A program made the translations under genes and the position numbers. From contig JAPLJI010000167.1 of the NCBI GenBank assembly GCA_026388655.1, positions 1 through 60,242 of the forward strand: a stretch of DNA of 60,242 nucleotides. Reading direction: 5' to 3'. Numbering within the stretch: the stretch's first letter is position 1; the number at the start of each line of letters is the position of its first letter. This DNA is from Pseudomonadota bacterium. GTDB lineage: Bacteria; Desulfobacterota; JAPLJL01. This document shows positions 15,959 to 60,242 of this stretch, one piece after another. The notes under the pieces are model-generated. The model saw nothing but the letters and a program-made list of their open reading frames with translations, did not search any database and was not told the DNA's origin.

Positions 15959-17215
15959 TTAATCCCGGAGCAAGATCCGGGCCGTCGTCAACAGGTTGAT
16001 GTCGGTAGTGCCGGCCCCAAGCTCCAAGAGTTTAGCATCCCTTAATAATTTTTCAACATGGTATTCCTTCATATAGCCGTAGCCGCCGAAGATCTGGATG
16101 GCTTCCATGGCCACCTCGATCGCGGCCTGGGCGGCGTAGGCCTTGCTCGCGCATATGAAAGCCATGTCCCGCTTCTTGGCCGAGCCCATCCAGGCCAGGC
16201 GGTAAACGATGTTCTGGACGTTCATATACTTGATATACATATTGGCGATCTTGAGCTGGATGGCCTGGAATTCCCCGATCGGCTTGCCGAACTGCTTGCG
16301 TTCCTTGGCGTATTTAACCGACTCTTCGAAGCACCGTTCGATGATCCCCAGGCACATCGCCGGCACCCCGCTCCGCTCGTTCCCCAGGCTCTCCTTGGCC
16401 TGGTCGCGGAGATTGTCTTTCTCCACCCCCAGGAGGTTCGCCTTCGGCACCTTGACGTCGTCCATGAAAACCTCTCCGGTGGGGGAATCCTTCATCCCCA
16501 TTTTCTCGAAAGGCTTCCCGGTGGTCAAACCCGGCATCCCCTTCTCCAGGACAAAGGCGTGCACCGGCTGCTTATCCTTGGGCTGGCCGCGGTCGATTTT
16601 GGCGTAGACCACGAAGATTTCGCCGTAGGGGGCGTTGGTGATAAAGGTTTTTTGCCCGTTCAGGATATAGTAGTCATCCTTCGGCTTAGCCGTGGCCTTC
16701 ATGCTCCCGAAGGCGTCGGAGCCCGCCTCGGGCTCGGTCAGGCACCAACAACCCACCTTGTCCAGGGCGTTAATGGGGACCCCCCACTTCTCGATCTGGT
16801 CGGCGTTCCCCTTGCTCAGGATCGTCCCGCCGGCCAGGGCGGTGGAAACCCCGAAGCTCATGGCGAAACCCGGAGCCACCCGGCAGAGTTCCTTGATCAT
16901 CGTGAACGGGATCATCATGTCCCGCTGGGCCATTTCCATGGGATCATCGGGGTCGCCCTCCTCCTTCTTGTCTTCCACCAGCCCCTCCTCCTTCTTGTCT
17001 TCCACCGGCCCCTTCTCCCGCATCTTCTGAACCTTGCGCTTCATACCCTCCCGCATGGCATCGCGCATCCCGAAGGCGTCAAGCATTTGACGCATCAGGT
17101 CAAAAGGATTGATTTCGGCCTTCTCCAGGGCCTCCACCTTGGGCTGGAGCTCATTTTCGCACCATTGCCGGAAGGCCTGCTGGATCATTTTTTGGGGTTC
17201 GGTCAGTTCAAACAT
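15959..17215 (-). CDS. Acyl-CoA dehydrogenase with a charged insertion
   Basis: FAD-dependent acyl-CoA dehydrogenase, first enzyme of the operon. Family signatures 'CWCLTEPEAGSDAFG' (flavin/substrate contact), 'ERKQFGKPIGEFQAIQ' and 'QIFGGYGYMKEYHVEKLLRDAK' are present. At the usual position of the catalytic glutamate (Y-E-G-T in medium-chain enzymes) the sequence is 'GAGTTDI', so that residue is absent; a glutamate in 'LGNERSGVPAM' lies where isovaleryl-CoA-type enzymes keep theirs. Residues about 70-100 carry an unusual charged insert with 'VEDKKEEG' twice in tandem. The start at 17215 follows AAGGAGG; 19 upstream residues are discarded. Electrons would go to ETF, not encoded here. Confidence 0.92.
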   Translation of the reverse strand: MFELTEPQKMIQQAFRQWCENELQPKVEALEKAEINPFDLMRQMLDAFGMRDAMREGMKRKVQKMREKGPVEDKKEEGLVEDKKEEGDPDDPMEMAQRDMMIPFTMIKELCRVAPGFAMSFGVSTALAGGTILSKGNADQIEKWGVPINALDKVGCWCLTEPEAGSDAFGSMKATAKPKDDYYILNGQKTFITNAPYGEIFVVYAKIDRGQPKDKQPVHAFVLEKGMPGLTTGKPFEKMGMKDSPTGEVFMDDVKVPKANLLGVEKDNLRDQAKESLGNERSGVPAMCLGIIERCFEESVKYAKERKQFGKPIGEFQAIQLKIANMYIKYMNVQNIVYRLAWMGSAKKRDMAFICASKAYAAQAAIEVAMEAIQIFGGYGYMKEYHVEKLLRDAKLLELGAGTTDINLLTTARILLRD

Positions 17216-17346
17216 GAAAATCCTCCTTTTTATTAAAATAAATGATTTTTTCCAGTAGTGAATGGATACCAAACCCGGGCAACCCCTGTCAAGGATTCTT
17301 TTAATAATGTTAGTGAGTTAGAAAGTTGGAGAGTTGGTGAGTTGGC

Positions 17347-20300
17347 TTAAAAACCCGTCCCGATGCCTACATACACCCGCACCGGTTCTTTTTCCGGGTC
17401 GGGAAAACCGTGGGCCAGGCGGATGAAAGTGCCCCAGGGATAAGAATAAAAAATATTGCTGGAAAGCCTGATTTCACACCCCGCGTCAATTTTTATGTCA
17501 TCCGGGTCCAAGAGATGCCGGAAGCCGCGGACGGATTGAATGACATTCCCGGCATCACCAAAAATGGAAAAATACACCCGGTTGAAATAAAAGAAGCCGA
17601 CTTGTTTCTTAATCCCCAGGACCGGGAGGCGGTAAGAAAGATGAAAAATCCCCAGGCGTTCCCCGCGGAGATGAAAAGCCGGGAATCCGGGAAAATCGCT
17701 CCGGGTCCGGAATTCCCCCATTCCCGTGAATTCCATCGACCCGCCCGCGAAGAATTCATCCCAAAAATAGACATCCCGGTTGATCCAACCCAGGGAAAGG
17801 CTGGTTTCCAGGGCGCTGTCCAGGGGCAGGGCGAAATTCTCGGTCCAATCGAGAAAAAGCTGGTGGTAGCGATAATCATTGTAAAACCTGTTACTTTCCC
17901 CGTTCCCGGTTTCGATGACATCCTCCACTTCCCGGTTGAAGTTGGAAAATCCGGCGCTGTAGATGAACAGCACCTGCCTCCCGCCCCGGGGATGCGCACC
18001 CCAGTCCTTGGTCGGGGAAAACTGGAGGTGCCAGAGAATCAAACCGGCCTGCTGCCGCTCCTGCCTGAGGGGCAGGTAAGCATACTGGAACAACTGCCCG
18101 GAATCGAAGTGATACTCGTCTTTTAAACCCTCGGTATTGAGAACCCGGAAACGGTAGAAGGGAGAAACCAGGAAACTGTCCTGGAAAATGTATTGCGGCC
18201 CCACCTGGAAGTTGCTCCACTTCGTTTTCAAGTCATACGAGTTCTCGACCTCTTTCCGCTTTTCTTCCCACCGCAGATTGCGAATGTAATACCCGCCCTC
18301 AAGGTAAAAGGTGGGATGCCACATGCTATTCAGGTATTGAACGGTATAATCCTGGTTCTCCCCAAAAAGAAATTCGCCCATGAGGGTATGCTTGCCCAGG
18401 AGGTCGGAGGCCATGACGATGGCCCCGCCCTTGAACCCCTGCTCGTCCTCGTAAATAAACTCGGGGAAAACCGCAACCGGGAGGAGGGAGAAATGGTAAG
18501 GATGATCAATGCCGGTAACCGGCAGAGGGTAAGTAAAATTGACGATTGACGATTGACGATTGACGATTGGGGATAACGAATTGACGATTGACGATTGACG
18601 ATTGACGATTGGGGATAACGAATTGACGATTGACGATTGACGATTGACGATTGGGGATAACGAATTGACGATTAACAATTGACGATTAACGATTGGGGAT
18701 AACGAATTGACGATTGACGATTGACGATTGACGATTGGGGATAACAAATTGACGATTGACGATTGACGATTGACGATTGGGGATAACGAATTGACGATTG
18801 ACAATTTATCCCGAGAGCTGTCGAGGGACAACCAATTAATCCGAAATCCTTCGGCGGTGAAATAGCTGTAGACGATCCCTTTTCCCTGGGGATCGGGAAC
18901 CGGCATAAAGGCCCCGGTTTTCACCCGGGTCAATTGTTTTCTTTCGCCGCTCGCCAAATCCAGGAGATACAGATTGAAAATCCCTCCCTGATCCGAGCTG
19001 TAAAGCAGGTGGCTCTCGTCCACCCAGGCCGGGTCTCTTTCGTTCGCCGGGCCGGAAACGAGGGGGTGAACCTTCCCGGAAAGGTCCACCGAATAGATTT
19101 CCTCGTTCCCCCGGTCCAGGATCCCGAAGGCGATCCGGTCGCCGGCCGGGGAAAAAGCGGGGGAAAAAAGCTGGGCCCCGCCGGAAAACTGGGTTAAGGG
19201 CTTGAGTTCGGCCTCATCCCGGGTCAGGTCCAGAAGCCAGACATTCCGGTCTCCACCTTCATTATTAATAAAAGCTATCCGGGTTCCATCGGGCGACCAG
19301 GCGGGGTTGAAAGCCCGGAGACCATCGGTGATTTTTGTTTCCGATCTTTCCGCGAGGTCGTAAACATAGAGATCGCTGAAGTGATTTCCCCTCCAGTCGA
19401 AAAGGTCCTCCCGGGAATAAAGCAGGCTCCGGCCGTCCGGAGCGTAACTCGCCCCGGAATTCACCCCCCCGGCGACGAAGATGGGGTTGCCGCCCTTTTC
19501 CCGGGGAACGATTAAAAGACTCTCGGCCATAAAGTCGGAGCGGTCGCTGGAAACATAGGCGATCCATTCCCCGTCCGGGGAAAAGCGGGGGGAGAGATTC
19601 AGCCTCCCCTTCCCGGCGAATTTTTCCCCGGCGATTTCATTTTCGGCTATTCCTTCCAGTTCCTCCCGATACCCTTCCGAAAGCCAGGCCAGCCATTCCG
19701 CGTAAACGGCCGGGAGATCCCGGCCGAGGACCTGTTTGATCGTATTTCCGAAATTCCAATGCCAGCCCCGGCCCTGCTCGGCGGCAAGTTTTCCGGACAT
19801 CTCCGGGCCATAACGCTCTTCGAGAAAACGGCAGAAGGAAAATCCCTGGTTGTAAACCAGCTCGGCCTCCCAGGCATCCTTTCCCGATAAGATCCCCATC
19901 TCATCCAGGGATAGAACCTGGTCCGCGAGCCAGGACGCCCGGAGAAAGGTATCCCGGTAGTTATCCCAGGTATCCGAGCCGAACCGGGTCGATCCCAGCT
20001 GGGCGATTCCCTCGGAAAACCAGGAGGGGCTGATGGAGCCGGGGATGGGAAAGCTTCCCGCCAGGTCCAGGTAATGAAAAACGCGGGGCCGCCCCTCCCC
20101 GGAACCGCTTTCCAGGATCGAAAAAATCAGGAGCGGCAGATGCGGTCCGAATCGGTCGGCCAGCTTCAGGGAAACCAGGTGGGTGAACTCATGGGTGATC
20201 ACGTTTTTCAGCCAATCCGCCCGGCCGCGGAGGGGCAGGTCCAGGCTCGTGGCGGTGATCAGAATCGCGCTCTGGAAATAACTTGACTCACCGTAGGCGT

Positions 20301-20610
20301 AATCGTCGGTATCCTGGAAAATAATGACCGTCTTTCCCGCCGGCTCATAACCGTAATAACCGGTGACCCGGGGATAGATCTCCTCGGCTACCCGGCTTCC
20401 TTCCCGGGCCATAACCTCCTCTCCCTGGTGATACAAAATCCGGAAATGCCCGGTTTCGATCACCCGCCAGTTGAGCTCGGGATGGTTGTAGGCGGATGCC
20501 GGCCCGGCAAGCAGAATGACCAGGCCAAAGGCCAGATGGCCCAGGAAGAATTTCCAGGCGGATCGAGGCAATTTATTTTCGGGAGGGTTCCCCGGAGATC
20601 CGGCTTTCAA
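17347..20610 (-). CDS. Exported gluzincin-type peptidase fused to PD40 beta-propeller and C-terminal barrel, with minisatellite insert
   Basis: A 1087-residue exported protein. After a signal peptide (to 'PASA', about 40) comes a zinc-peptidase-like domain with 'HEFTH' at 140-144 and a likely third ligand in 'WFSEGIAQ' (E200). Residues about 335-620 hold TolB/PD40 propeller blades ('PRFSPDGEWIAYVSS', 'PAWSPDGTRIAFINN', 'PAFSPAGDRIAFG'). From about 695 alternating beta strands ending in 'YVGIGTGF' look like an outer-membrane barrel. Between propeller and barrel lie six 14-residue repeats built from a spacer repeat family. Start is TTG at 20610 with GGAGGAGGG upstream, overlapping the AhpD-like gene by 38 bases. 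Probable cell-surface protein; substrate unknown. Confidence 0.85.
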   Translation of the reverse strand: MKAGSPGNPPENKLPRSAWKFFLGHLAFGLVILLAGPASAYNHPELNWRVIETGHFRILYHQGEEVMAREGSRVAEEIYPRVTGYYGYEPAGKTVIIFQDTDDYAYGESSYFQSAILITATSLDLPLRGRADWLKNVITHEFTHLVSLKLADRFGPHLPLLIFSILESGSGEGRPRVFHYLDLAGSFPIPGSISPSWFSEGIAQLGSTRFGSDTWDNYRDTFLRASWLADQVLSLDEMGILSGKDAWEAELVYNQGFSFCRFLEERYGPEMSGKLAAEQGRGWHWNFGNTIKQVLGRDLPAVYAEWLAWLSEGYREELEGIAENEIAGEKFAGKGRLNLSPRFSPDGEWIAYVSSDRSDFMAESLLIVPREKGGNPIFVAGGVNSGASYAPDGRSLLYSREDLFDWRGNHFSDLYVYDLAERSETKITDGLRAFNPAWSPDGTRIAFINNEGGDRNVWLLDLTRDEAELKPLTQFSGGAQLFSPAFSPAGDRIAFGILDRGNEEIYSVDLSGKVHPLVSGPANERDPAWVDESHLLYSSDQGGIFNLYLLDLASGERKQLTRVKTGAFMPVPDPQGKGIVYSYFTAEGFRINWLSLDSSRDKLSIVNSLSPIVNRQSSIVNLLSPIVNRQSSIVNSLSPIVNRQLLIVNSLSPIVNRQSSIVNSLSPIVNRQSSIVNSLSPIVNRQSSIVNFTYPLPVTGIDHPYHFSLLPVAVFPEFIYEDEQGFKGGAIVMASDLLGKHTLMGEFLFGENQDYTVQYLNSMWHPTFYLEGGYYIRNLRWEEKRKEVENSYDLKTKWSNFQVGPQYIFQDSFLVSPFYRFRVLNTEGLKDEYHFDSGQLFQYAYLPLRQERQQAGLILWHLQFSPTKDWGAHPRGGRQVLFIYSAGFSNFNREVEDVIETGNGESNRFYNDYRYHQLFLDWTENFALPLDSALETSLSLGWINRDVYFWDEFFAGGSMEFTGMGEFRTRSDFPGFPAFHLRGERLGIFHLSYRLPVLGIKKQVGFFYFNRVYFSIFGDAGNVIQSVRGFRHLLDPDDIKIDAGCEIRLSSNIFYSYPWGTFIRLAHGFPDPEKEPVRVYVGIGTGF
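18539..18806. repeat. In-frame 42-bp minisatellite, six units, built from a 7-bp spacer repeat
   Basis: Each unit is four copies of TTGACGA followed by the 14 bases TTGGGGATAACGAA (plus-strand sense). Six units, most identical, keep the minus-strand frame and encode 'SLSPIVNRQSSIVN' and variants (unit two LLSP, unit three RQLLIVN). The same heptamer and the 14-base piece occur in non-coding DNA at about 21592-21650, and the heptamer alone near 13115 and 43730. Confidence 0.95.
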
Positions 20611-21088: not shown

Positions 21089-21747
21089 GTCCGCCTCCTT
21101 GGTGGGAACGGTGCCACAACCGGAAATACACAGGATAATTAGTATCCCGAAAAATGATGTAGTATGCCGATTCATCGGCGGCTTTCAAAAGAGCCCGATA
21201 AATCGGGCAACTACAATAAAATTGAAAATATTAACTTCATTTTTCATGTTTATTGGACTTACTTTCCATTTTTCCGGAGATATTCCTCATAATTCATTTT
21301 CCCGTAAATTCCATCCCCGACATAATGGATGATGTTTGAAAACCTGTCCGGTTCCACGTAGCCGGCGATGAAATCGATCTTTGTAATAAATTAGTTTTGA
21401 CCCTACGGACATTGTCAGGAAAAGTTTGAATAAACCATTTGCCAACAGATTAATCGAAGCCAAAAAATGCCGTTAAGTTTTCGCAGTTCTTCCTTTTGAA
21501 AATCTCCCCCTCCGGGTCGGAGACCCTACCCTCCCTACGGGCTGGAAGCGTGGGCCGGAGGCCGCAGGAATGACGTTATGATTTATCGTTCCGCAATCGT
21601 CATTCGTCAATTCGTTATCCCCAATCGTCAATCGTCAATCAGCCGCAAGGCTAAAGCCTTGCCCTACATTCTGGTACATTCAGTTCATCTGGTTAGTTTG
21701 GTTTTCATTCGTCAATCTGCAATCGTCAATCCGCATTTGGCTTTTGA
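21089..21747. repeat. Repeat-filled spacer with a gene remnant
   Basis: Contains a composite REP-like element at about 21158-21215, a thioredoxin-like gene tail (entered separately), then at about 21480-21660 a mixture of spacer repeats, including non-coding copies of the TCGTCAA heptamer together with the TTCGTTATCCCCAA piece seen in the minisatellite, and an 'aaggctaaagccttgccctac' element near 21650. No intact gene. Confidence 0.6.
21259..21390 (-). pseudogene. C-terminal remnant of a thioredoxin-fold protein
   Basis: Between two in-frame stops the minus strand reads a 43-residue tail, 'FIAGYVEPDRFSNIIHYVG' followed by 'DGIYGKMNYEEYLRKNGK' and a stop. The 'G.v.P..f...l.yVg.g.Y..m.yeeYl' pattern is what I recall from the end of exported thioredoxin-like (SoxW/thiol-disulfide type) proteins. 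There is no start codon and no CxxC part. It is the left-over 3' end of a deleted gene. Confidence 0.5.
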
Positions 21748-43601: not shown

Positions 43602-44102
43602 TTCAAAAAATCCTAGACACGGATATTCACGGATATAATCTGGTTTTTATTAATCATAAATTTTTTTACCTGTCTTTGATCCATCAAATCCGTATAATCG
43701 GTCTGAATCTGTTATTTGCTTTTCATTCGTCAATCGTCAATCTAATCATTCTGCATTAATCTTCAATCTTCAATTGGTGTATTTGTCATTCATTATTCCC
43801 CTTGAACCCTGGATTCCCGTTTTCACGGGAATGACGTCTTATGTTGTCATTCCTGCGAAAGCAGGAATCCATTCCCTCCCGTCATTCCGCGCTCCGCAAT
43901 TCTTTTTCATCATTCATCAATCGTCAATCCCTCCGGCCCGGAGGCTAAAATCGCCATTTCTTTGTGCGCTTTGCTCTTTGCTCCTTCTTCACTGTTGGTC
44001 TGTTGGACTGTTGGTCTTTAGACTTTATACTCCTTTGCTCCCTGCTCCCTGCTTTTTATCTTTTTTAACCTTTGAACCTTGAACTTTGAACTTTGAACTT
44101 GT
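43602..44102. repeat. Repeat-filled spacer between aroC and aroB
   Basis: Contains 'acacggatattcacggatat' (43615), TCGTCAA heptamers (43729-43742 and 43917-43929), the 'ttcccgttttcacgggaatgac' and 'ttcctgcgaaagcaggaat' pair (43810-43875), 'tgttggtctgttggactgttggtc' octamers (43993-44018), and an ending GAACxxx heptamer array (44071-44103). Shikimate kinase might be expected here but no gene is seen. Confidence 0.65.
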
Positions 44103-45296
44103 TCAGTAGGCCTCCACCTCGCGGAGGTAGCTTAAAAAATTCCGCCTGACCTCGCGGATGGAATCCCCCCCGAATTTCTCGAGAAAGGCGCGGGCCAGCT
44201 CCAGGGCCGTCATGCCCTCCCCGACCACCGCCGCCGCCGGGACCGCGCAGACATCCGATCTCTCCACCGTGGCCGGGACGGCCTCCTTGGTGTCGATCTG
44301 GACCGAATTCTTGGGCTTGAGCAGGGTGGAGATCGGCTTCATCGCCGCCCGGATCACCAGCTCCTCCCCGTTCGTCACTCCCCCTTCCAGGCCGCCGGCG
44401 CGGTTGGTCTTTCGATAAAAATTGACCGCCGACCGCTGACCGCCGACCGCCGATTTATAAAAGATTTCGTCGTGGACCTGGGAGCCGGGTTTCCGGCCCG
44501 CCAGGAAACCCATCCCGATCTCCACCCCCTTGATCGCCGGGATCGACATCATGGCCCCGGCCAGGCGGCCGTCCAGCCGCAAGTCCCACTGGCAGTAGCT
44601 GCCCAGGCCGGGCGGCAGGCCGAAAGCCCGGACCTCGAAAACACCACCCACGGTATCACCCTTGCTCCGGGCTTGATCGATCAATTTTTTCATCCGCTTT
44701 TCCGCCCCCAGGTCGCCGCAGCGAAGCTCGGATTTCTCCACCTTCTCCCAATAATCATTTTCTTTGACCTTTGACCCTTCACCTTTGACCTTTACTCCCC
44801 CGATTTCGATCACCTGGCTGCGGATGACCGTGCCGAATTCCGCGAGCAAGCGGCGGCAGACCGCCCCGGCCGCGGTCCGGGCGGCGGTTTCCCGGGCGGA
44901 AGCCCGCTCCAGGACGTTACGCAGGTCCCGATGCCCGAATTTTATCCCCCCGGCCAGGTCGGCGTGCCCGGGCCGGGGCACCTTGAGGGCCTGCGCGGCG
45001 GGAAGCGCCGAGATGTTGTTCTCCACCTTCATCAATTCTTTCCAGTTTTCCCAGTCGCGGTTCCGGATCAGGATCCCCACCGGCGAGCCCAGGGTCTTGC
45101 CCCGGCGCACCCCGGAAAAAATCTCCGCCCGGTCGCTCTCGATCTTCATCCGGCCCCCGCGGCCGTATCCCCTCTGCCGGCGGGCCAGGTCCAGGTTGAG
45201 CTCTTCTTCCGCCAGGGGCAGGTCGGCGGGGATCCCTTCCAGGATCACCAGCAGACCTTTTCCGTGAGATTCCCCGGCCGTGAGAAACCTGAGCAT
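44103..45296 (-). CDS. aroC: Chorismate synthase with two repeat-derived insertions
   Basis: Last enzyme of the shikimate pathway, forming chorismate with reduced FMN. Signatures are '[17 protein letters not shown]' at the start, '[17 protein letters not shown]', '[15 protein letters not shown]', and at the end '[22 protein letters not shown]'. At 397 residues it is longer than usual. The extra length includes '[14 protein letters not shown]' (DNA 44763-44796, heptamers of the CCTTTGA family) and '[13 protein letters not shown]' (DNA about 44423-44453, heptamers GACCGCC). The same heptamers occur in spacers of this window. Both insertions are in variable loops and keep the frame. It lies just downstream of pilQ, the usual context in related bacteria. 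Confidence 0.95.
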
Positions 45297-45376
45297 ACGT
45301 TTATCCGATCCGGTTATTCATCCCCCAGAGACCTGCCCGGCCCCGGGGAAAAATGCCTCCACCCGCTTTAGCCTCG

Positions 45377-47872
45377 CTAAACATCCCTTTTTTCCACTAT
45401 CCGCGGCGTGATGAAAATCAACAGCTCCGTCCGGTTGTTGACCGTCTGGTCCCGGCGAAACAGCCAGCCCAGGATCGGGATCGAGGAGAAAAAGGGTATC
45501 CGGGAATGGCTTTCGGTCTTCTCAATCGTATAGATTCCCCCGATGACCACGGTCTCGCCGTCCTTCACCAGGATGTCCGACTTGGCTTCTTTCTTGGAAA
45601 CGCTCGGGACGCCGGAGGCGCTGCGGATGGTGGTGTCCGGGGCGTTTTTCTCGGCCTTGATCTTCATGATCACGCTCCGGTCGGCGGTGATGTGCGGGGT
45701 GACCGTCAGGCTCAGCACGGCGTCAATGAACTGGGTCTGGGTACCCGTGGTGGAAACCGATTCGTAGGGGATGGAAAGGCCTTGTTTGATCTGGGCCTCC
45801 TGGTTATCCATGGTCACGATCCGGGGCGAGGAGATCACCCGGCCTTCCCCCGAACCCTCCATCGCGGAAAGCCGGAGGTCCAGGGAGGCAATGCTGTTGA
45901 TCGAACCGAAGGTGAAACCCATCGCGCCGCCGCCGCTGGTGAGGCTGACCGCCGCGGGCAGGTTCACCGCGTAGAAGGGATCGGCGCTGATCCCGTATTG
46001 GGTGCCGTCTCCGAGGCTGGGGATCCCGCCCCCGATCCCGATGGAATTCGGGAAAGGCAGGCCGGTGGGATTTCCGCTCGCGGCCGAAGCGTTGAAGCGC
46101 CCCCCCCACTGCACGCCCAGGTCCCGCGACAGATTGGTGCTGGCCTCCACGATCCGGGCCTCAATCAAAACCTGGGGGGTCTGGGTGTCGAGATTCTTGA
46201 TCAGCATGGCGACGGACTGCACGTTCCGGACGATGTCCTTGACGATCAGGACATTGGTCCGCCTGTCCACGTCCACCGTCCCGCGGGTGGAAAGCAATCC
46301 CTTGATCTGGCCGCTGTACCCATCGGCCGGCCCGTAGTTGACCGGGATGATCTTGGTGATTAGGGGCTCGATTTCTTCCTTGGTTTTCTCCGCCTTCATC
46401 ATCTCCTGCATTTCGTTCCGGAGTTTTTCCGCGGGGGCGATCCGGATGACGTTGCCCACCCGTTCCATCCCCAGCATGTTCGACTTGAGAATCAGGTCGA
46501 GGGCCTGATCCCAGGGAACATTGACGAGTTTCAGGGTCACCCGGCCCTTGACGTCTTCCCCGGCCACGATGTTCAGCTTGGCCACGTCCGCGATCACCCG
46601 GAGGGCGTCGATGATTTCTCCCTCGCGGAACTCGATATCCATTTTCCGGCCCGTGAACCGGGGCTGGGTGGATTCTTCCATGATTACTCCCACCCGGGCA
46701 ACCGGGGCCGCGGCCGGTTTGGGCCGCGCCACGGGCGCGGGGGCCACCGGGGTTAGAGGAGCCTCAACCAGAGGCGGAACCTCCGCCGGGGCTTCCGGGG
46801 CGGGAGCCAGGGAGGTTTCATAAGGAGGAATTTCCGGGGGCGCGGGGGCCACTTCCGCCACTATCACTCCCTCCGGAGCGGGGGTAACCGCCTGCCCCAT
46901 TCTGATCACCAGGCGGTTCTCCTGCCGTTTGACCTGATAAGGGGGAATCCCCCCGTTGGCCGGCTCGAAAACCAGGCGCAGCTTGTCCGGATGCTGGCCG
47001 ATCCGGATCATTTTGAGTTCCGGGGTCGAGACCGGTATCTCGGTGGCCGGATAAAGGTTTCCGACATCCATGATATCCACGACAAACCGGGGCGGGTTTT
47101 CCAGTTTGAAGGCGCTGTAATCCTTAATCTCTCCGTTTCCGACAATCTGGATCTCGGTGGCCCCGGCCTGGGGACTGACCCTGAAATCCAGGATCTTGGT
47201 GGCTTTTCCACCCGCGGCGACTTCCTCCGCGGCGGGAGCCGGGGCGGCGGGGCTTTCCGCCGGCGGCGGCACCTCGGCTAAAGGCGGGATCGGGGCGGCC
47301 TCCGGGAAGGCCGGCGCGGGGCCGATCTCGGGAGCCGGCGCTCCGCTCGGGCCCAGGTCACCGGGAACCTCCGCCAGGGGAGGGATCTCCCCTCCTTCCA
47401 GGGGCGGCAGTTCCAGGTTTTCCCCCGGAAGAGGCGCGGCCGGCGCCGGGGCTATCGGTGCCGCTTTGAAGACCTGGATCACCATGTCGTTGCCCTCGGA
47501 GCGCGCGTCGTATTCCAGGGGTTTCAGGAGCCCGATCTCGATCCTCCCGATGTCCTTGTTCTGCTCGGTGATCTGCGCGGCGGACACCTGGCCCACGAAG
47601 CCGTTGTCCACCTTGGCCGGGGTTGAAACCGCCGAGACATCGGTATTGGCCAGGTCGATGACGATCCGGGCGGGATCGTTCAGCTTGAAGGCCGTGTAGG
47701 TAGGACGACCCTGGCCTTTAAGCGTGATCACCACCGCGTTCTCGGAATCGCTGACCGAGATATTGGTGATAGTGTTGTCCCAGTTCTTCTTGGCCCCGCT
47801 TTCCCCGCTGAGGGCGAAAAAGAACCCGATCGCCACCGCCACCGCCAGCCAACCCTTAGCCTTTAAATTCAT
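45377..47872 (-). CDS. pilQ: Type IV pilus secretin PilQ
   Basis: Outer-membrane ring through which the pilus passes. Signal peptide to about residue 30; two AMIN domains that bind peptidoglycan ('ITLKGQGRPTYTAFKLNDPAR' pattern and 'NGEIKDYSAFKLENPPRFVVD', shortened here to their cores); a Pro/Ala/Glu-rich linker; a secretin N-domain ('MDIEFREGEIIDALRVIADVA', cut to 'FREGEIIDAL'), an NTD with 'VNYGPADGYSGQIKGLL', and the secretin core with 'EARIVEASTNLSRDLGVQWG', 'GEGRVISSPRIVTMDNQEA' and 'PFFSSIPILGWLFR'. Start at 47872 follows AAGGAGG; seven upstream residues are not used. Last gene of pilMNOPQ. Confidence 0.97.
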   Translation of the reverse strand: MNLKAKGWLAVAVAIGFFFALSGESGAKKNWDNTITNISVSDSENAVVITLKGQGRPTYTAFKLNDPARIVIDLANTDVSAVSTPAKVDNGFVGQVSAAQITEQNKDIGRIEIGLLKPLEYDARSEGNDMVIQVFKAAPIAPAPAAPLPGENLELPPLEGGEIPPLAEVPGDLGPSGAPAPEIGPAPAFPEAAPIPPLAEVPPPAESPAAPAPAAEEVAAGGKATKILDFRVSPQAGATEIQIVGNGEIKDYSAFKLENPPRFVVDIMDVGNLYPATEIPVSTPELKMIRIGQHPDKLRLVFEPANGGIPPYQVKRQENRLVIRMGQAVTPAPEGVIVAEVAPAPPEIPPYETSLAPAPEAPAEVPPLVEAPLTPVAPAPVARPKPAAAPVARVGVIMEESTQPRFTGRKMDIEFREGEIIDALRVIADVAKLNIVAGEDVKGRVTLKLVNVPWDQALDLILKSNMLGMERVGNVIRIAPAEKLRNEMQEMMKAEKTKEEIEPLITKIIPVNYGPADGYSGQIKGLLSTRGTVDVDRRTNVLIVKDIVRNVQSVAMLIKNLDTQTPQVLIEARIVEASTNLSRDLGVQWGGRFNASAASGNPTGLPFPNSIGIGGGIPSLGDGTQYGISADPFYAVNLPAAVSLTSGGGAMGFTFGSINSIASLDLRLSAMEGSGEGRVISSPRIVTMDNQEAQIKQGLSIPYESVSTTGTQTQFIDAVLSLTVTPHITADRSVIMKIKAEKNAPDTTIRSASGVPSVSKKEAKSDILVKDGETVVIGGIYTIEKTESHSRIPFFSSIPILGWLFRRDQTVNNRTELLIFITPRIVEKRDV

Positions 47873-47923
47873 AATTTTCCTCCTTGTTTCCACAGCCGAT
47901 TGAAATATATCTCAATGCTTCCC

Positions 47924-48436
47924 TTACTTTACTACTTCGGTAAAACAGAGGTTGGACTTGCGCTCCTGGGCTTTTCCGTAAAAATCCTTGAATTTCTCCA
48001 GGATCACGATGCAGGTCCGGTTGATCTCGGTCACCCTGCCGCTGTGCCTTCCGATCGCGGTCCCGGTCCGGACGATGTAAACCTGGCCGTCCGGGGCTCC
48101 CACCATCGCCCGGCTGTCGCTGGTCGAACCGGAGAGGATCCCGTTGATCTTCAGCTGGTAAATGTCGAATCTTTCCAGCGGGGTGGAGGCTTTCTGGTTT
48201 TCCTCTTCCTCCACCGATACGAAGGGATAGAAAGGATCCCTTTTCCCCTCGGAATGAAATTCGTAGCTCGCCACCATTTCCGAAATCGCCTCGGGAGCCG
48301 CTTCCTCGGCGGTCGCTTTTTTCTCGGCGGCCGGACCCGGCGCCGGTTTGCCCTTCCCCTTTCCGCCGCAGCCGGCCGGGGAACTCGGGCCCCCGATCAG
48401 GATCAGGCCCAGGACAATGATTAGGAATTTTTTCAT
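47924..48436 (-). CDS. pilP: Type IV pilus lipoprotein PilP
   Basis: A 170-residue inner-membrane lipoprotein linking the PilN/PilO platform to PilQ. A signal sequence with lipobox 'SPAGC' near residue 22 precedes a Lys/Ala-rich flexible stretch and the beta domain with 'KRDPFYPFVSVEEEE' and 'LKINGILSGSTSDSRAMVG', which is typical of PilP. Start at 48436 is set by GGGAGG upstream; the longest frame begins at 48457 within that site. It lies 17 bases after the PilO stop and 50 bases before pilQ. Confidence 0.93.
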   Translation of the reverse strand: MKKFLIIVLGLILIGGPSSPAGCGGKGKGKPAPGPAAEKKATAEEAAPEAISEMVASYEFHSEGKRDPFYPFVSVEEEENQKASTPLERFDIYQLKINGILSGSTSDSRAMVGAPDGQVYIVRTGTAIGRHSGRVTEINRTCIVILEKFKDFYGKAQERKSNLCFTEVVK

Positions 48437-48453
48437 CCTCGAACCTCCCTCTT

Positions 48454-49062
48454 TCACTGGGTTAAACCGGCATCTTCCAGGAACCGGTAGGTGGTAATGA
48501 TGATCGAGGCGTCCAGGATCACCTCCCGTCCCGGCTGTTTGCCGCCCTGCGGTTTCAGGTTGATATTGTTCACCTGCACAATGCGGGGCATGTTGGCCAG
48601 CCGGTCAAAAAAGCTGGCCGTGTCCATATACCTTCCCTGCAAAGTGATGCTGATGGGAACCTCGGCGTAAAAGCTTTTCCGGACCTCGCCCGCCGGCTTG
48701 AAGCTCAATATCTCCAGCCCGGACTCGCTGGCCTTGACCGGAATCTCGATGAGCAACTGGTCGATCTCGGCCCGGCTGGGAAGCTTGACCAGGGCCCGCT
48801 TGAGTTTCTCGTTCAGGCGCTGGATCTCCTTCTGGAAGATCGGCAGGTTGTCGGCGGTGGCCTTCTTGGTGATCCGCTCGGATTCGAGCTTGGAGAGCTC
48901 GTCCTTGCGGGCCGAGAGTTCCTTGGCCTTGGGCACGTAGAAAAAGTAGAAATACAACCCGGAGATCAAGATCAGCAGCCCGCCCAGAATCAAAAGCTTC
49001 TGGGTCAGGGGCAGCTTGGCGATTTTTTCAACGTTCAGGCTTTGCAGGTCTGCTAGGGTCAT
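48454..49062 (-). CDS. pilO: Type IV pilus inner-membrane protein PilO
   Basis: A 202-residue bitopic membrane protein: short cytoplasmic N-terminus, one transmembrane helix ('LLILGGLLILISGLYFYFFY', about 27-46), a coiled coil (about 50-110, rich in Lys/Glu) and a ferredoxin-like periplasmic domain ('FKPAGEVRKSFYAEVPISI' region). It pairs with PilN and binds PilP. Start ATG 49062 with AAGGAGG upstream. It follows pilN by 23 bases. Confidence 0.93.
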   Translation of the reverse strand: MTLADLQSLNVEKIAKLPLTQKLLILGGLLILISGLYFYFFYVPKAKELSARKDELSKLESERITKKATADNLPIFQKEIQRLNEKLKRALVKLPSRAEIDQLLIEIPVKASESGLEILSFKPAGEVRKSFYAEVPISITLQGRYMDTASFFDRLANMPRIVQVNNINLKPQGGKQPGREVILDASIIITTYRFLEDAGLTQ

Positions 49063-49085
49063 TCTGATCCTCCTTGTAACTGTAT

Positions 49086-49712
49086 CTAATTATTTTCTTT
49101 ATCGGTCTTCGCCTTCCTGCCCTTTTTCTCGGCGGCGGAGGCGGGAGGCGCGATTTCGATCCCCATCCCCGGGAGGCCGGCCTTGAGCGAGAGGTTGAAA
49201 TTCACCATCTTGTATTTCTCGTACATGATCTGGTTACTGGAGCCGAAAATCACCTCGCGGAAAACGCCGGATTTCTCCAGGTTGTCAATGAACTTGGCGA
49301 CGGTCTGGTTGTCGATGGCGTTCCCGTTGAGGTTGACCTTGCCCTGGTTTTCGGTGAGGAAGGTCAGCCATAACTTTTCCGGGGTCATCTGGGACATCTT
49401 GTCCATGAACATCACCGCCCCCACCCGGCCCTTTTCCAGGTTTTCGATCACGGCGAGCTTGTCTTCCAGGTTCTTCCTCTTCACCTCGATGTCCTTGACC
49501 TCCTTGATCAGGTCGTCCAGCCGGGCGCTTTCCGCCTTGGTTTCGGCGATCTTCTTCTGGGCGGAGGTAATCTGGCCTTTGATCCGGGAGTGTAAAACCC
49601 CAATCAGCAAAAACAGGATCACCACCGCGGCCACGAGCACCACGATCTGCTCCCGCATCCCTTCTTTCTTTTTCGCCTCCCTCCCCTTGGGGAGAAGATT
49701 AATCTTGATCAC
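49086..49712 (-). CDS. pilN: Type IV pilus inner-membrane protein PilN
   Basis: A 208-residue bitopic protein starting 'IKINLLPKGREAKKK', the N-terminal motif by which PilN binds the groove of PilM. Transmembrane helix 'IVVLVAAVVILFLLIGV' (about 24-40), then coiled coil and a periplasmic domain including 'TPEKLWLTFLTENQGKVNL'. The start is GTG at 49712, with GGGAGG upstream. A 395-bp repeat-filled spacer separates it from pilM, although the genes normally almost touch. Confidence 0.93.
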   Translation of the reverse strand: MIKINLLPKGREAKKKEGMREQIVVLVAAVVILFLLIGVLHSRIKGQITSAQKKIAETKAESARLDDLIKEVKDIEVKRKNLEDKLAVIENLEKGRVGAVMFMDKMSQMTPEKLWLTFLTENQGKVNLNGNAIDNQTVAKFIDNLEKSGVFREVIFGSSNQIMYEKYKMVNFNLSLKAGLPGMGIEIAPPASAAEKKGRKAKTDKENN

Positions 49713-50107
49713 TGGCTTTCCTCCCTTCGCAAAACCGGTTTATAACCGCCGGAGATTTAACCTATTTCCTTAAAACCGTTAATTGAGCATTTATTTCGTA
49801 CATTTTCGCTTTTCGCTTTGCTTCTTTTTCACTGTTGGTCTTTTTTCTTTGCGCTCTGCCTTTGGGTTTCGCAGGCTAAAGCCTGCGGCTACCAACTTCG
49901 CCCGATAAATCGGGCAACTACATTTACTCTTCGCCTTATTCCTTTGACCCTTGACCTTTCACCTTTGACCTTTATTCTTTGCTCTTTGCTTTCGCCCCGC
50001 CAGGGGCCCTGCTTCGCCCGATAAATCGGGCAACTACATTTACTCTTCGCCTTATTCCTTTGACCCTTGACCTTTCACCTTTGACCTTTATTCTTTGCTT
50101 TTTGCCC
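49713..50107. repeat. Tandem 88-bp duplication and heptameric repeats between pilM and pilN
   Basis: Bases 49896-49983 and 50012-50099 are identical. Each copy holds a REP-like palindrome followed by a heptamer run CCTTTGA, CCCTTGA, CCTTTCA, CCTTTGA. A near-identical 76-base stretch plus the preceding 21 bases recurs at 57937-58033. Confidence 0.85.
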
Positions 50108-51169
50108 TTAACGATCGCCCGCCATCCGTAAAGCCAGGCCCACTGCCACCCCGGAAGCGGAGGACAGGTTGGCGATATATTTCGGGTCAAATATCTTCGG
50201 GTCACATTCAACCTTCTTGAAAGGATCGACCAGCTCCGAGGGAATCCCCAGGCGCGCGGAGATCACCCCGGCCAGTCCGTGGGTCCGGGAGGCCCCCCCG
50301 CACAGGCAGATCCGGTTGACCGAGACCCCCGGGTTGGTGGTGCCGAAGAAATCCATGGAGCGCTGGAACTCGGCGCTGATGGAATCCGAAACCACCCCGA
50401 TAATATCCAAAACCTCCTTGGGGGTGTTTTCCCCCTCCACCCCGGCGCTCTTCTTGATCGCCTCCGCCTCGTTATAGGAAAGGCTCAACTGCCGCTGGAT
50501 CTCCTCGGTGTAGCTGGCCCCCCCGGAAGAGATGTCGCGGGTGAAGATCGAGATCCCGTCCCGGCAGACATTAATATTGATGAAGCTCGACCCGATGTTG
50601 ACCAGGGCCAGCACCTCGCCTTCCGCCAGCGGGTAATTGATCTCGTACATGTTGCCTACCGCGAAGGCGTCAATGTCCACCACCACGGGGTTCAGGCCGG
50701 CCTCGGTCAGAACCCCGGTATAGTCGTTGATCATGTCCTTCTTAACCGCCACCAGCAGAACCGACATCTGGCCTTCATCGGAAGGTCCGAGGATCTGGAA
50801 ATCCACGTTCACGTCGTTGATGTCAAAGGGGATGTACTGTTCCGCTTCCCACTGGATCTGGGTGATCAGTTCGTCCTCGGTCATCATCGGCACGTTGACC
50901 TTCTTGATGATCACCGAGGTTCCCGACACCGAGGTGACCACGTCCCGGGTCTTGACCTTGAGCTCGGCCAGGAGCCCCTTGATCCCGTCGAGAACGGCGG
51001 GAGAGTTCATGATCGCGCCGTCCACGATGGTCTCGGGGGAAAGGGGCGCCAGCCCCAGGTTGATCAGCCGGTATCCCTTCTTGGTCTGCTTCAACTCGAC
51101 CAGTTTGATCGAGCTGGACCCGATGTCCAGCCCCACGGACGACTTGGCTTTTCCAAAACTTAACTTCAT
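50108..51169 (-). CDS. pilM: Type IV pilus actin-like protein PilM
   Basis: Cytoplasmic actin-fold ATP-binding protein that anchors the pilus platform. 'SVGLDIGSSSIKLVELKQTK' at the N-terminus is the phosphate-1 region, 'VDIDAFAVGNMYEIN' and 'LVNIGSSFININVCRDG' the second phosphate region and 'ICLCGGASRTHGLAGVIS' the adenosine region. About 353 residues from the ATG at 51169 (MKLSFGK), which has GGGAAGGGAA upstream; the longer frame starts inside the inverted-repeat element at 51208-51339 and is not used. First gene of the pil operon, downstream of an XRE regulator. Confidence 0.95.
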   Translation of the reverse strand: MKLSFGKAKSSVGLDIGSSSIKLVELKQTKKGYRLINLGLAPLSPETIVDGAIMNSPAVLDGIKGLLAELKVKTRDVVTSVSGTSVIIKKVNVPMMTEDELITQIQWEAEQYIPFDINDVNVDFQILGPSDEGQMSVLLVAVKKDMINDYTGVLTEAGLNPVVVDIDAFAVGNMYEINYPLAEGEVLALVNIGSSFININVCRDGISIFTRDISSGGASYTEEIQRQLSLSYNEAEAIKKSAGVEGENTPKEVLDIIGVVSDSISAEFQRSMDFFGTTNPGVSVNRICLCGGASRTHGLAGVISARLGIPSELVDPFKKVECDPKIFDPKYIANLSSASGVAVGLALRMAGDR

Positions 51170-51207
51170 GGGGTTCCCTTCCCTTCCTTGGTTATATCCC
51201 CTGCTTT

Positions 51208-51339
51208 GAGCCTGTTGCACAAATCAGAAAAGTGTCACTCCTGCGGAAGCAGGAGTCCAGGAACTTATTGATATTACTGGATTCCGGCTTTCGCCGGAAT
51301 GACGGTTTGTCCGGTTTTCACCGTTTGTGCAACAGGCTC
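51208..51339. mobile_element. MITE-like element with 16-bp terminal inverted repeats upstream of pilM
   Basis: Ends are perfect inverted repeats GAGCCTGTTGCACAAA (51208-51223) and its complement (51324-51339). The 132-bp body contains two small palindromes, one being 'tcctgcggaagcagga' and the other 'attccggctttcgccggaat', the same kind found in the dispersed 'aatgac' repeats. No transposase gene. It separates pilM from the XRE gene and begins 39 bases before the pilM ATG. Confidence 0.6.
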
Positions 51340-51623
51340 CTTTCTGATCTTTTCCCATTTTATTCTTTGTTCTCTTGATTGAGCCCGATCCCTCCTTTGT
51401 CGGGATAAATGAATCGGGCAACTACATTTCCGTCACAACCGTCAATCGTCATTTCTCCTTGCCCTATGCGCTTTGCTTCTTTTTCACTGTTGGTCTGTTG
51501 GACTGTTGGTCTTTTTGCTTTGCCCCTCTGCCCTTTGAACTTCGCCCGATGAATCGGGCAACTACATTTTCTCTTTGCTCTATGCCCTATGCGCTTTGCG
51601 CTTTGCTCTTATTGCCCTTTGCG
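51340..51623. repeat. Spacer of REP-like and heptameric repeats
   Basis: Includes palindromes around 51398-51428 and 51540-51568, 'tgttggtctgttggactgttgg' octamers at 51490-51512 and the start of the GCTCTTT/GCGCTAT heptamer array that continues into the XRE gene. Confidence 0.65.
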
Positions 51624-51932
51624 CTATGCGCTATGCGCTTCGCTCTTTGCTCTTTGCGCTTTGCCCTCTGCTCTTTGCTCTTTGCCCTTGGTCTCCCCGG
51701 CCACCAGGCTCGCGTGCCTTCTCACCGTATCCTCATCGTCGGGGAAAACCTTCTTCCGCTCGGCGAGGTCGTAACCGAGGGCCAGGATGATTTTCCGCTT
51801 GGTATCAATCCGGCAGTCCATCCCTTCCTCGATTCGATCAATGGTGTGGGCGGAGACCCGGGCCTTGCGGGCCAGTTCCGCCTTGCTCATTAAAAGCTCT
51901 TCCCGGAGTTTTTCTACTAGGTTCTTTGCCAC
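51624..51932 (-). CDS. XRE-type helix-turn-helix regulator with repeat-encoded tail
   Basis: A 102-residue DNA-binding protein. The helix-turn-helix is 'MSKAELARKARVSAHTIDRI' at about 15-34, followed by 'RKIILALGYDLAERKKVFPDD'; it is likely a regulator of the pil genes because it is directly upstream, although that is inference. GTG start at 51932 with GAGGAG upstream. The last 20 or so residues ('KEQRAEGKAQRAKSEAHS') are encoded by the GCTCTTT/GCGCTTT heptamer array of the spacer (51624-51695), so the original stop seems to have been replaced by repeat sequence. Confidence 0.85.
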   Translation of the reverse strand: MAKNLVEKLREELLMSKAELARKARVSAHTIDRIEEGMDCRIDTKRKIILALGYDLAERKKVFPDDEDTVRRHASLVAGETKGKEQRAEGKAQRAKSEAHSA

Positions 51933-52616
51933 CGCTTCTCCTCGCTTTTTGGTATTAATTCCTTATTTCTCGTCTTTGAACTTTGAACGGGGTAACTCTT
52001 TTTGGTTTGCTCTTTGCTCTTATTGCTCTTTGCACTTTTTGTGACGCTCCCTAATTCCAATCGTCCCCTAATGGACATGCCCTGTCAATCATTTTTATTA
52101 AATTGCACTAAATTTACATTAATTAACAGCATATTTAGTAGATTGATCCGAAGCCAACACAATATATAGAAGTGGCAAAGTGGTGATAGGTCATAGGCCA
52201 AGGGTCAAAGGTGAAGGGTGAAAGAGGGTGTTATGAGTATGGAGTGCAGAAGCTTGCTTCTGCAACCAAATGAATGTAGTGGTCGAGCTTGCTCGACAAA
52301 ATCTGATAAAGCCGACCAACCCTTCGCTTCGCTCGAGGGCAAGGGTCGGCCACTACAAAATCCGTTGATCAAACGAATCCAGGCAAAGAAAGGGCGGTCT
52401 TGAGGCCGCCCTTGTTGCAAGGCTGAAGCCTTGCCCTACATCCTGCTGCCTGTTTTTTGCTATTTATCCTGAGCTCTGCCAAAGGACCTGCTACTTGTTT
52501 TTTTTCTTTGACCTTTCACCTTTGACCTTTGAGCTTCTTGTCCGACGAAGCCTTGGCGTAGTCGGCTGCGCTTTGCGCCTCATCTTTGTTTGGGATAAAC
52601 GCTTTGCGCTTTGCTC
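51933..52616. repeat. Spacer with AT-rich promoter-like part and repeats
   Basis: The 52070-52150 part is AT-rich and gene-free and is the likeliest place for the promoter of the leftward XRE/pil genes, though I cannot point to clear boxes. From 52200 come heptamers (GGTCAAA, GGTGAAG), a long palindromic element at 52245-52368 ('tgtagtggtcgagcttgctcgac...gtcggccactaca'), a terminator hairpin and a 'caaggctgaagccttgccctaca' element. Confidence 0.55.
52390..52413 (-). terminator. Terminator hairpin downstream of the Ig-like lipoprotein gene
   Basis: Minus-strand stem AAGGGCGG / CCGCCCTT followed by TTCTTTGCC. It lies about 200 bases past the stop of the gene ending at 52617. Confidence 0.5.
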
Positions 52617-53555
52617 TTATTGCCCTCCCTGCAAGGACAACGAAAACCGCTGGGTCGTCGATCCCCCATCCGGATCCTCCACCTTGACCTCTACCGTAAA
52701 GTTTCCGGCTTGCCCCGGCGCCGGGGTCCACTCGATCAGCCCCGAGGGACCGATCTTCATCCCGGGGGGCGCGGAACCCAGGGAAAATTTAAGTACCTGG
52801 TTGTCGGGATCCTCGGCCTTGACCTGATAGCGATAAACGCCGTCCTCCAGGGCCGTCGGGGGGTCGCTGGAAATCAAGGGGAAGACGTTCACGATCCGGA
52901 TGGAATTGGAGGATACTACCGCCTCTCCCTGGCCGAAACGATCCGACGGGGTCACCCTCACCTGGAAGATCTTCCTTTTCTCGAACAAACTCGAATCCAG
53001 GATCGGGCCGGTGGCTTCGGGGATTTCCTCCCGGTCCTTGAGCCATTGGTAGGAAAGGGTGATCTGGTCATTATCCGCGTCCGTCGCTTCCACCTCGGCC
53101 TTAAGCGGAGCGAGAACCTGGTCCGACACCGGGACGATCTTTACCGAGGCGACTACCGGCAGAGCGTTGTGGACCTGGAACGGATCGGAAACCGCGGGCT
53201 GGCCTTCCTCTTTACCATCGGAAGGAGTAATTCTGACCGTGATTTTGTCCTCGGGGGATACCCCCCGGGGGCTGAAGTCCGCCCGGGTTTCCCCGGAGGC
53301 GTTGTTCCCGTTCACCATCCATTGATAGGAATAGCTGACCTGGTCCCCATCGGGGTCCTCCGCCTGCGCCAGGGCTCGGAGGGTATCCGGCTGGGATTCG
53401 ATCTTCGCCGACTTCATCACCGGGGGCCGGTTCTTCCGGGCCTCCTCCCCGGCGGCGGGCTGTTTCTTTCCACAGGCGGACGGCAGGAAAAATATCCCCA
53501 GACTGAGAATGACGACAATCTTAAGGAAACCGTTGCCAAAAACCCATTTTGTCAT
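52617..53555 (-). CDS. Lipoprotein with Ig/cadherin-like PKD-type repeats
   Basis: A 312-residue lipoprotein. Signal sequence 'FLKIVVILSLGIFFLPSACGKK' (its lipobox is 'LPSAC', near residue 29), then three tandem beta domains that each contain 'DPDGDQVSYSYQWMVNG', 'DADNDQITLSYQWLKD' or 'DPDNQVLKFSLG', the Ca-binding-like pattern of cadherin/PKD-type repeats, ending 'VEDPDGGSTTQRFSLSLQGG'. I use the ATG at 53555; the frame stays open to 53789, but that part is made of dispersed repeats, including a duplicated 39-bp unit. Surface or periplasmic role unknown; it lies between the XRE/pilM genes and pilY1. Confidence 0.75.
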   Translation of the reverse strand: MTKWVFGNGFLKIVVILSLGIFFLPSACGKKQPAAGEEARKNRPPVMKSAKIESQPDTLRALAQAEDPDGDQVSYSYQWMVNGNNASGETRADFSPRGVSPEDKITVRITPSDGKEEGQPAVSDPFQVHNALPVVASVKIVPVSDQVLAPLKAEVEATDADNDQITLSYQWLKDREEIPEATGPILDSSLFEKRKIFQVRVTPSDRFGQGEAVVSSNSIRIVNVFPLISSDPPTALEDGVYRYQVKAEDPDNQVLKFSLGSAPPGMKIGPSGLIEWTPAPGQAGNFTVEVKVEDPDGGSTTQRFSLSLQGGQ

Positions 53556-53609
53556 TCTGAATCCCCGCCTGTTGCCAAAAACCCATTTTGTCATTCTGAA
53601 TCCCCGCCG
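53532..53609. repeat. Tandem 39-bp direct repeat at the lipoprotein start
   Basis: Two adjoining units (53532-53570 and 53571-53609), nearly identical, each with an ATG in frame ('MTKWVFGN'). 39 bp is 13 codons, so either ATG could start the protein. Confidence 0.85.
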
Positions 53610-54183
53610 ATGGCGGGGGTGAAGAATCTCTCTTCCAACGGAGAAGCCGGAAGAACCAGATCCTTCGCTGGCGTTTATCCTGAGCCCTTCGAGATCCTTC
53701 GCTTCGCTCAGGATGACATCGGGCGAAGGGCTCAGGATGACATTCGGTAAATTTTGCAGTGGTTTATCAGGTAATATTTTTGGCCGCATTTTTATTCCTC
53801 CTTTTCTTCATTATATATTGCAGGGGGCAAAGGGCCAAGCGCCAGTCGCATAGGGCATAGGTCAAAGGTGAAGGGTGAAAGGTGAAAGATAAAAGGACAA
53901 TTTGAAAATCTCCCCCTCCGGGTCGTAGACCGCCCTACGGGTCGGAGACCTCCCCCTCCTTCACCAAAGAGGGGCTATTAAAATAGTAATTAAAACATTT
54001 TCCCCCTTTGTGAAAAGGGGGACTGAGGGGGATTTTCAAAAATTATGATAAGAGGTTATAAGAAAAGGGCGGCCTCGCGGCCGCCCTTTCTTTAGGTTTG
54101 GATTAACAATATTTATTCTATTATATTTTACCTTTGACCTTTGACCCTTCACCTTTGACCTATCATTTCTTTGCCCTCTGCGC
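53610..54183. repeat. Repeat-filled spacer upstream of the lipoprotein gene
   Basis: Contains 'cctgagcccttcgagatccttcgcttcgctcagg' type repeat (53680-53750), heptamers near 53850-53890 and 54128-54165, and an inverted 'ccccctccttcaccaaagagggg' pair. A terminator hairpin is entered separately. No gene seen. Confidence 0.6.
54064..54089 (-). terminator. Terminator hairpin downstream of pilY1
   Basis: Perfect 11-bp stem AAAGGGCGGCC / GGCCGCCCTTT with a four-base loop and a T-rich tract on either side. It lies about 95 bases after the pilY1 stop. Confidence 0.75.
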
Positions 54184-59932: not shown

Positions 59933-60242
59933 TTTCTTTTCCCTGTATTTCTCTTTACTTTTTTCGCAAGGCTGAAGCCTTGCCCTACTTCGCCCGATGA
60001 ATCGGGCAACTACATTTACGCTCTGCTCTTTGCTCTTATTGCCCTTTGTCCTTGCCTTTGACTTTTAATCTATTACTTTCTTTTTACCTTTCAGCTTTGA
60101 CCTTTGAGCTTCTTCGACCTTTCACCTTTGACCTATCACTTCTTTGCTCTTTGCTTCTTCTTCACTGTTGGTCTGTTGGACTGTTGGTCTTTTTGCTTTG
60201 CCCCTCTGCCCTTTGAACCTCGCCCGATGAATCGGGCAACTA
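59933..60242. repeat. Repeat-filled spacer at the window end
   Basis: Contains 'gcaaggctgaagccttgcccta' (59969), REP-like palindromes at 59988-60015 and 60219-60242, and heptamers GCTCTGC/TCTTTGC, CTTTGAC and an octamer 'tgttggtctgttgg' at 60165. The promoter for pilWXY1 may lie beyond. No gene seen. Confidence 0.6.

Follow-up and report, generated by a model that had tools for sequence, protein, structure and literature searches.

The window analysed here is the whole 60,242-nucleotide stretch of contig JAPLJI010000167.1 (assembly GCA_026388655.1; own genome, G000), and the features discussed below are collected in Table 1. They centre on an ORF whose product is a predicted outer-membrane peptidase, 66.6% identical overall to its orthologue in the sister species (G002). 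Pfam searches of the product returned PD40 and DPPIV_N matches together with weaker Peptidase_MA and Omp85 matches, both of which were under the curated cut-offs (PF01103, residues 759-1053, just under, with an E-value of 5e-5). Residues H140, E141, H144 and E200 were invariant among 8 homologues, and the HExxH motif with its downstream glutamate is consistent with a Peptidase MA (gluzincin) metalloprotease, at a Pfam score under the curated cut-off. An AlphaFold2 model built on 8 sequences lends support to the helical peptidase region and to the propeller, the strands of which (329-595) mostly have a pLDDT of 70-90; the propeller, mostly confident, stops at residue 595, and residues 596 to about 722 were modelled without secondary structure. 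The low pLDDT of this linker does not by itself prove disorder, because with 8 sequences the barrel has low pLDDT as well. The protein is probably located at the surface or extracellularly.

Table 1. Coordinates of the features discussed, in positions of the window.
Feature	Position	Strand	Content or basis
1087-aa ORF	17347..20610	-	Signal peptide, HExxH peptidase domain, PD40 (TolB-like) propeller, repeat linker, Omp85-like barrel
HEFTH (HExxH) motif, residues 140-144	20179..20193	-	Homologue alignment
Beta-propeller, about residues 329-593	18832..19626	-	Pfam PD40/DPPIV_N; AlphaFold2 strands 329-595
Whole linker insert	18536..18834	-	Approximate ends, deduced by aligning the G002 orthologue
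Second dispersed module, TGTCCCTCG-N6-CTCGGGATAAA	18805..18830	-	Adjoins the array; translated too
In-frame array, 42-bp units	18537..18806	-	Four CAATCGT heptamers + 14-base piece per unit
Omp85-like beta-barrel, residues 706-1087	17350..18495	-	PF01103 match; AlphaFold2 strand pattern, low confidence
Thioredoxin-like gene remnant	21262..21384	-	tblastn, 66% over 41 aa, E 2e-13
Intergenic sibling	21604..21640	+	Matches the coding array exactly over 37 bp, in opposite orientation

Between the propeller and the barrel the ORF contains a tandem array, for which TRF gave a period of 42 and 6.4 copies (96% matches, no indels, score 505), a copy number that was taken from a draft genome of 194 contigs and may not be exact. 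Each unit consists of TTGACGA x4 followed by TTGGGGATAACGAA; two diverged heptamers can be recognised in this 14-base piece, so that the unit can be counted as six heptads. The array encodes the 14-residue peptide repeat NSLSPIVNRQSSIV, and one tryptic peptide predicted from its translation is QSSIVNSLSPIVNR. Substitutions were located in unit 4 (several) and unit 5 (one), and differences between units alter amino acids (S to L). Across the window TTGACGA was observed 40 times, where dinucleotide shuffles gave an expectation of 6.9 (sd 2.7). The TRF result and the in-frame position within the 1087-aa ORF confirmed the six-unit, 14-residue coding minisatellite of 42-bp units that a preliminary description of this DNA had recognised. 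That description had placed the insert at 18539-18806, which holds for the array, but in the sense of the gene the insert starts earlier, with the second module: TGTCCCTCGACAGCTCTCGGGATAAA directly precedes the array on the minus strand without a gap.

The window also carries several tandems of different heptamers (CTTTGAC, CTTTGCG, GACCGCC) at 44070-54161 and 60082-60138, and a 116-bp duplication at 49896-50105. In an acyl-CoA dehydrogenase ORF (15959-17272, minus strand), a 27-bp in-frame tandem duplication (VEDKKEEGL, 16956-17018) was found that is absent from the G002 orthologue.

The consequences of changes in array length were computed from the sequence. A change by one or two heptamers in either direction cuts the protein to 636-650 aa and removes the barrel, and a change by three heptamers (21 bp) or by one 42-bp unit keeps the frame; the earlier proposal that only whole-unit changes are tolerated was thus wrong in detail. 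Substitutions within one array unit introduce stops into both non-coding frames and none into the coding frame, a small but consistent sign that the openness of the coding frame may have been kept. Between orthologues, dN/dS was 0.19 over the first 600 residues and 0.18 over the barrel, ratios that are rough for the barrel, where dS (1.28, compared with 0.70 in the N part) is near saturation. Only 27% of the alignable linker residues were identical between the orthologues. The purifying selection on both sides of the linker indicates that the gene behind the insert is no pseudogene.

The heptamer repeat is dispersed throughout the genus. By pattern searches, complemented by about 25 retrieved stretches, TTGACGATTGACGA was counted 116, 38 and 59 times in G000, G001 and G002, respectively, with a reversed control count of 0 in each, and once across 56 other genomes of the phylum sample; the three-copy form of TTGACGA was present on more than 100 contigs from many other phyla. 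The reversed pattern used as a null is itself a heptamer repeat in one relative: AGCAGTTAGCAGTT occurs 19 times in G008, where it represents a separate heptamer family, in a different family of the phylum. In all three congeneric genomes short 7-bp tandems stand at tens to hundreds of loci, as described for repeats of the STRR and TAACTGA kind, and mostly outside genes as judged from ORFs rather than gene calls. Among the retrieved sites of the own genome, the heptamer lay in recognised real genes only at the window gene and at a deoxyhypusine-synthase-like gene; three other open-frame cases (L044, L045 and L049) had translations that looked spurious and were not counted. At many spacer sites (L002, L047, L049, L050, L051) inverted heptamer arms lie about 100-130 bp apart, which suggests a MITE-like or hairpin organisation. 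Of such MITE features, neither flanking inverted arms nor an empty site was found at the coding array.

The occurrence of the heptamer and 14-base piece outside genes near 21.6 kb, also noted in the preliminary description, proved real in the form of the 37-bp match. In the whole genome the 14-base piece was found only in the coding array and at 21611-21624, about 3 kb away, and the coding unit and this nearby spacer copy most likely have a recent common origin. The spacer holding the sibling is rich in repeats and contains what is left of a thioredoxin-like gene, of which the sister species has an intact copy. The second module is dispersed as well (55 matches with ≤2 mismatches in G000, and 13 and 35 in the two congeners; reversed control 0). 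Its 26 bp form a quasi-palindrome and the 42-bp array is a direct repeat; at many spacers the module is joined to TTGACGA tandems, and we therefore regard the coding insert as a composite of two spacer-repeat families.

The same hinge was compared across homologues. The G002 orthologue is 76% identical over the peptidase and propeller part and 66% identical over the barrel; its linker holds neither the array nor any TTGACGA, which is the absence of the insert that the preliminary description had proposed to look for in orthologues. In place of the array, the sister linker carries GGCTACC/GGTTACT-type repeats of a dispersed family at its start and end, the right-hand one of which recurs at several other places in the sister genome and once in the own genome. 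In the own-genome paralogue (contig 183; L193:3931-4266) a palindromic repeat with 43 matches in that genome is translated in the propeller-barrel linker, the left part of which matches elsewhere too, and the linker of the G002 paralogue contains an octamer-type repeat with about ten known places. In homologues further removed the linkers are shorter and unrelated, and the condition that the preliminary description had set for its own refutation, the same insert in all distant orthologues, does not hold. Given these differing spacer-repeat fillings, the hinge can be regarded as a recurrent landing or growth site for spacer repeats. Together with the dispersal throughout the genus, the 37-mer in the spacer, and the purifying selection on the flanks, the array-free sister orthologue upholds the view that a spacer repeat has here become protein sequence.

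A second gene shows a similar pattern. In the deoxyhypusine-synthase-like gene (L053:685-1767, G000 contig 41), (AAAGGTC)n and (CAATCGT)3 occupy one loop; two congener proteins (L220, L221), about 85% identical, have a different repeat-like sequence in that loop, in frame. Judged from these sequences, the gene is a case of the same turnover of in-frame repeat filling across three species.

Which repeats can be read as protein depends on their orientation. A CAATCGT tandem is stop-free in every frame, and every frame of a TTGACGA tandem contains TGA; the array is compatible with coding because its orientation gives the CAATCGT strand. Among GTDB loci from many phyla, (TTGACGA)3+ arrays stood in open frames at 27 of 83 on the CAATCGT strand and at 0 of 83 on the other, that is, on 27 of 166 array strands compared with 787 of 1600 random strands. 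Heptamer arrays are under-represented in open frames and, where present, occur in one orientation only. Raw open-frame counts put the number of coding cases too high, because long open frames also arise spuriously in GC-rich DNA. The rule that the strand must be stop-free and the total length divisible by three predicts which spacer repeats can enter genes, and in which orientation. In unrelated phyla, TTGACGA arrays were observed in frame within conserved proteins (L081, L112, L119, L124, L125, L141, L147, L149 and L153). Several host genes of the arrays belong to well-known families, identified by Pfam or inspection: glycyl-tRNA synthetase, an AMP-binding ligase, a copper-type ATPase, MutS2, Mfd, MoeA and MurF-alanine racemase.

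We consider it very probable that the insert is spacer DNA which has been domesticated, or at least tolerated, as a protein linker. The genus holds a pool of many dispersed short modules, heptamer tandems and the quasi-palindrome TGTCCCTCG..CTCGGGATAAA among them, often joined in spacers, and a two-module composite of this kind would have been inserted at the unconstrained hinge that links propeller and outer-membrane barrel. The insertion would be readable in one orientation, that of the stop-free CAATCGT strand, provided that the inserted length as a whole left the frame intact. A block of six heptads, two of them diverged, may then have grown to about six copies via slippage or unequal recombination, in steps of 42 and 21 bp that are divisible by three and would be neutral for the barrel; the near-identity of the units suggests that this amplification was recent. 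Because no empty-site sequence with a target duplication was found, insertion and local growth from a native heptamer cannot be separated. The linker is probably little constrained and replaceable, since in both the sister species and the paralogue unrelated spacer repeats occupy the hinge; it may be flexible and without a specific function, in a gene that is presumably expressed.

The computed loss of the barrel upon a change of one or two heptamers, in a protein that is probably on the surface, would also fit a contingency locus, in which such frame shifts act as an ON/OFF switch for a surface protein. We regard this as unlikely: runs of perfect heptamers stop at four copies, gain or loss of the 42-bp units into which the heptamers are organised keeps the frame, the sister species lacks the array, and the heptamer is a genus-wide spacer repeat with no specificity for surface genes. 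The near-identity of the units, their stop-free coding frame and the likely extracellular location could alternatively reflect a selected protein repeat, with a functional 14-residue peptide (adhesive, a spacer of set length or a binding motif) to which the DNA repeat is secondary. The peptide, however, is the plain translation of spacer heptamers, one portion of the insert consists of a spacer module that lacks repeat structure, the changes between units alter amino acids, and the linker differs in every homologue, the sister species included; this explanation is accordingly held to be quite improbable.

A collapsed or chimeric spacer repeat fused into the gene during assembly has to be weighed too, in that the genome is a draft, the 270-bp array exceeds short reads and the repeat family occurs at 116 places. 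Such an artefact is very improbable indeed, given that the frame is kept across both modules, the barrel aligns to the last residue of the sister orthologue, the units carry position-specific changes, and homologues hold in-frame spacer repeats at the same site. Under the preferred reading of the insert as former spacer DNA, one hinge with different fillings in the sister species and the paralogue, and with constrained flanks, provides a natural series for the passage from noncoding repeat DNA to protein. As a tentative generalisation, which could well fail, short heptamer spacer repeats might generally and continually supply environmental bacteria with new protein sequence, with open-strand families entering loops and hinges of conserved proteins across many phyla, turning over between species, and at some sites becoming coding minisatellites.

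A literature search for the exact heptamer TTGACGA returned no paper, and the window case fits a known kind of heptamer or in-frame invader. One close likeness is to the TAACTGA heptamer direct repeats of Beggiatoaceae, Cyanobacteria and Bacteroidetes (MacGregor 2015, PMC4679880), which are dispersed 7-bp tandems, mostly intergenic with some inside ORFs, and of which one orientation has stops in all frames and the other reads as a heptapeptide (LSVISYQ); in BOGUAY they are placed just upstream of start codons, and it was proposed that insertion between modular protein parts might be tolerated (PMC4679880). Besides the different heptamer, the BOGUAY ORF cases mostly concern protein termini or hypothetical proteins, and the TAACTGA system lacks the 42-bp higher-order amplification, the composite with a palindromic module and the comparison of hinge turnover between sister species (PMC4679880). 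The GGGNATC heptamers of Xanthomonas and Nostoc (PMC4692102) are likewise genome-wide tandems, under-represented in coding regions and with a preference for four units, but they are G-rich and quadruplex-forming, and the TTGACGA repeat has no G-tracts. Short tandemly repeated repetitive (STRR) heptamers of heterocyst-forming cyanobacteria resemble the present repeat as tandems at many loci, some in functional genes, and differ in heptamers, in phylum and in that the gene concerned is that of RNase P RNA, not of a protein (Vioque 1997, cited in PMC2858038). Rickettsia palindromic elements (Ogata 2000, as cited in PMC10969869) are similarly dispersed and in frame at permissive sites of unrelated genes, but they are palindromes of about 150 bp with a conserved peptide, and they are nearer to the palindromic dispersed repeat in the linker of the paralogue than to the window array. 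The array was not assigned to these elements, as it is a direct repeat and only the 26-bp second module is quasi-palindromic. To these precedents the window case adds the composite structure, the 42-bp coding minisatellite, and a turnover of fillings between species at one fixed hinge.
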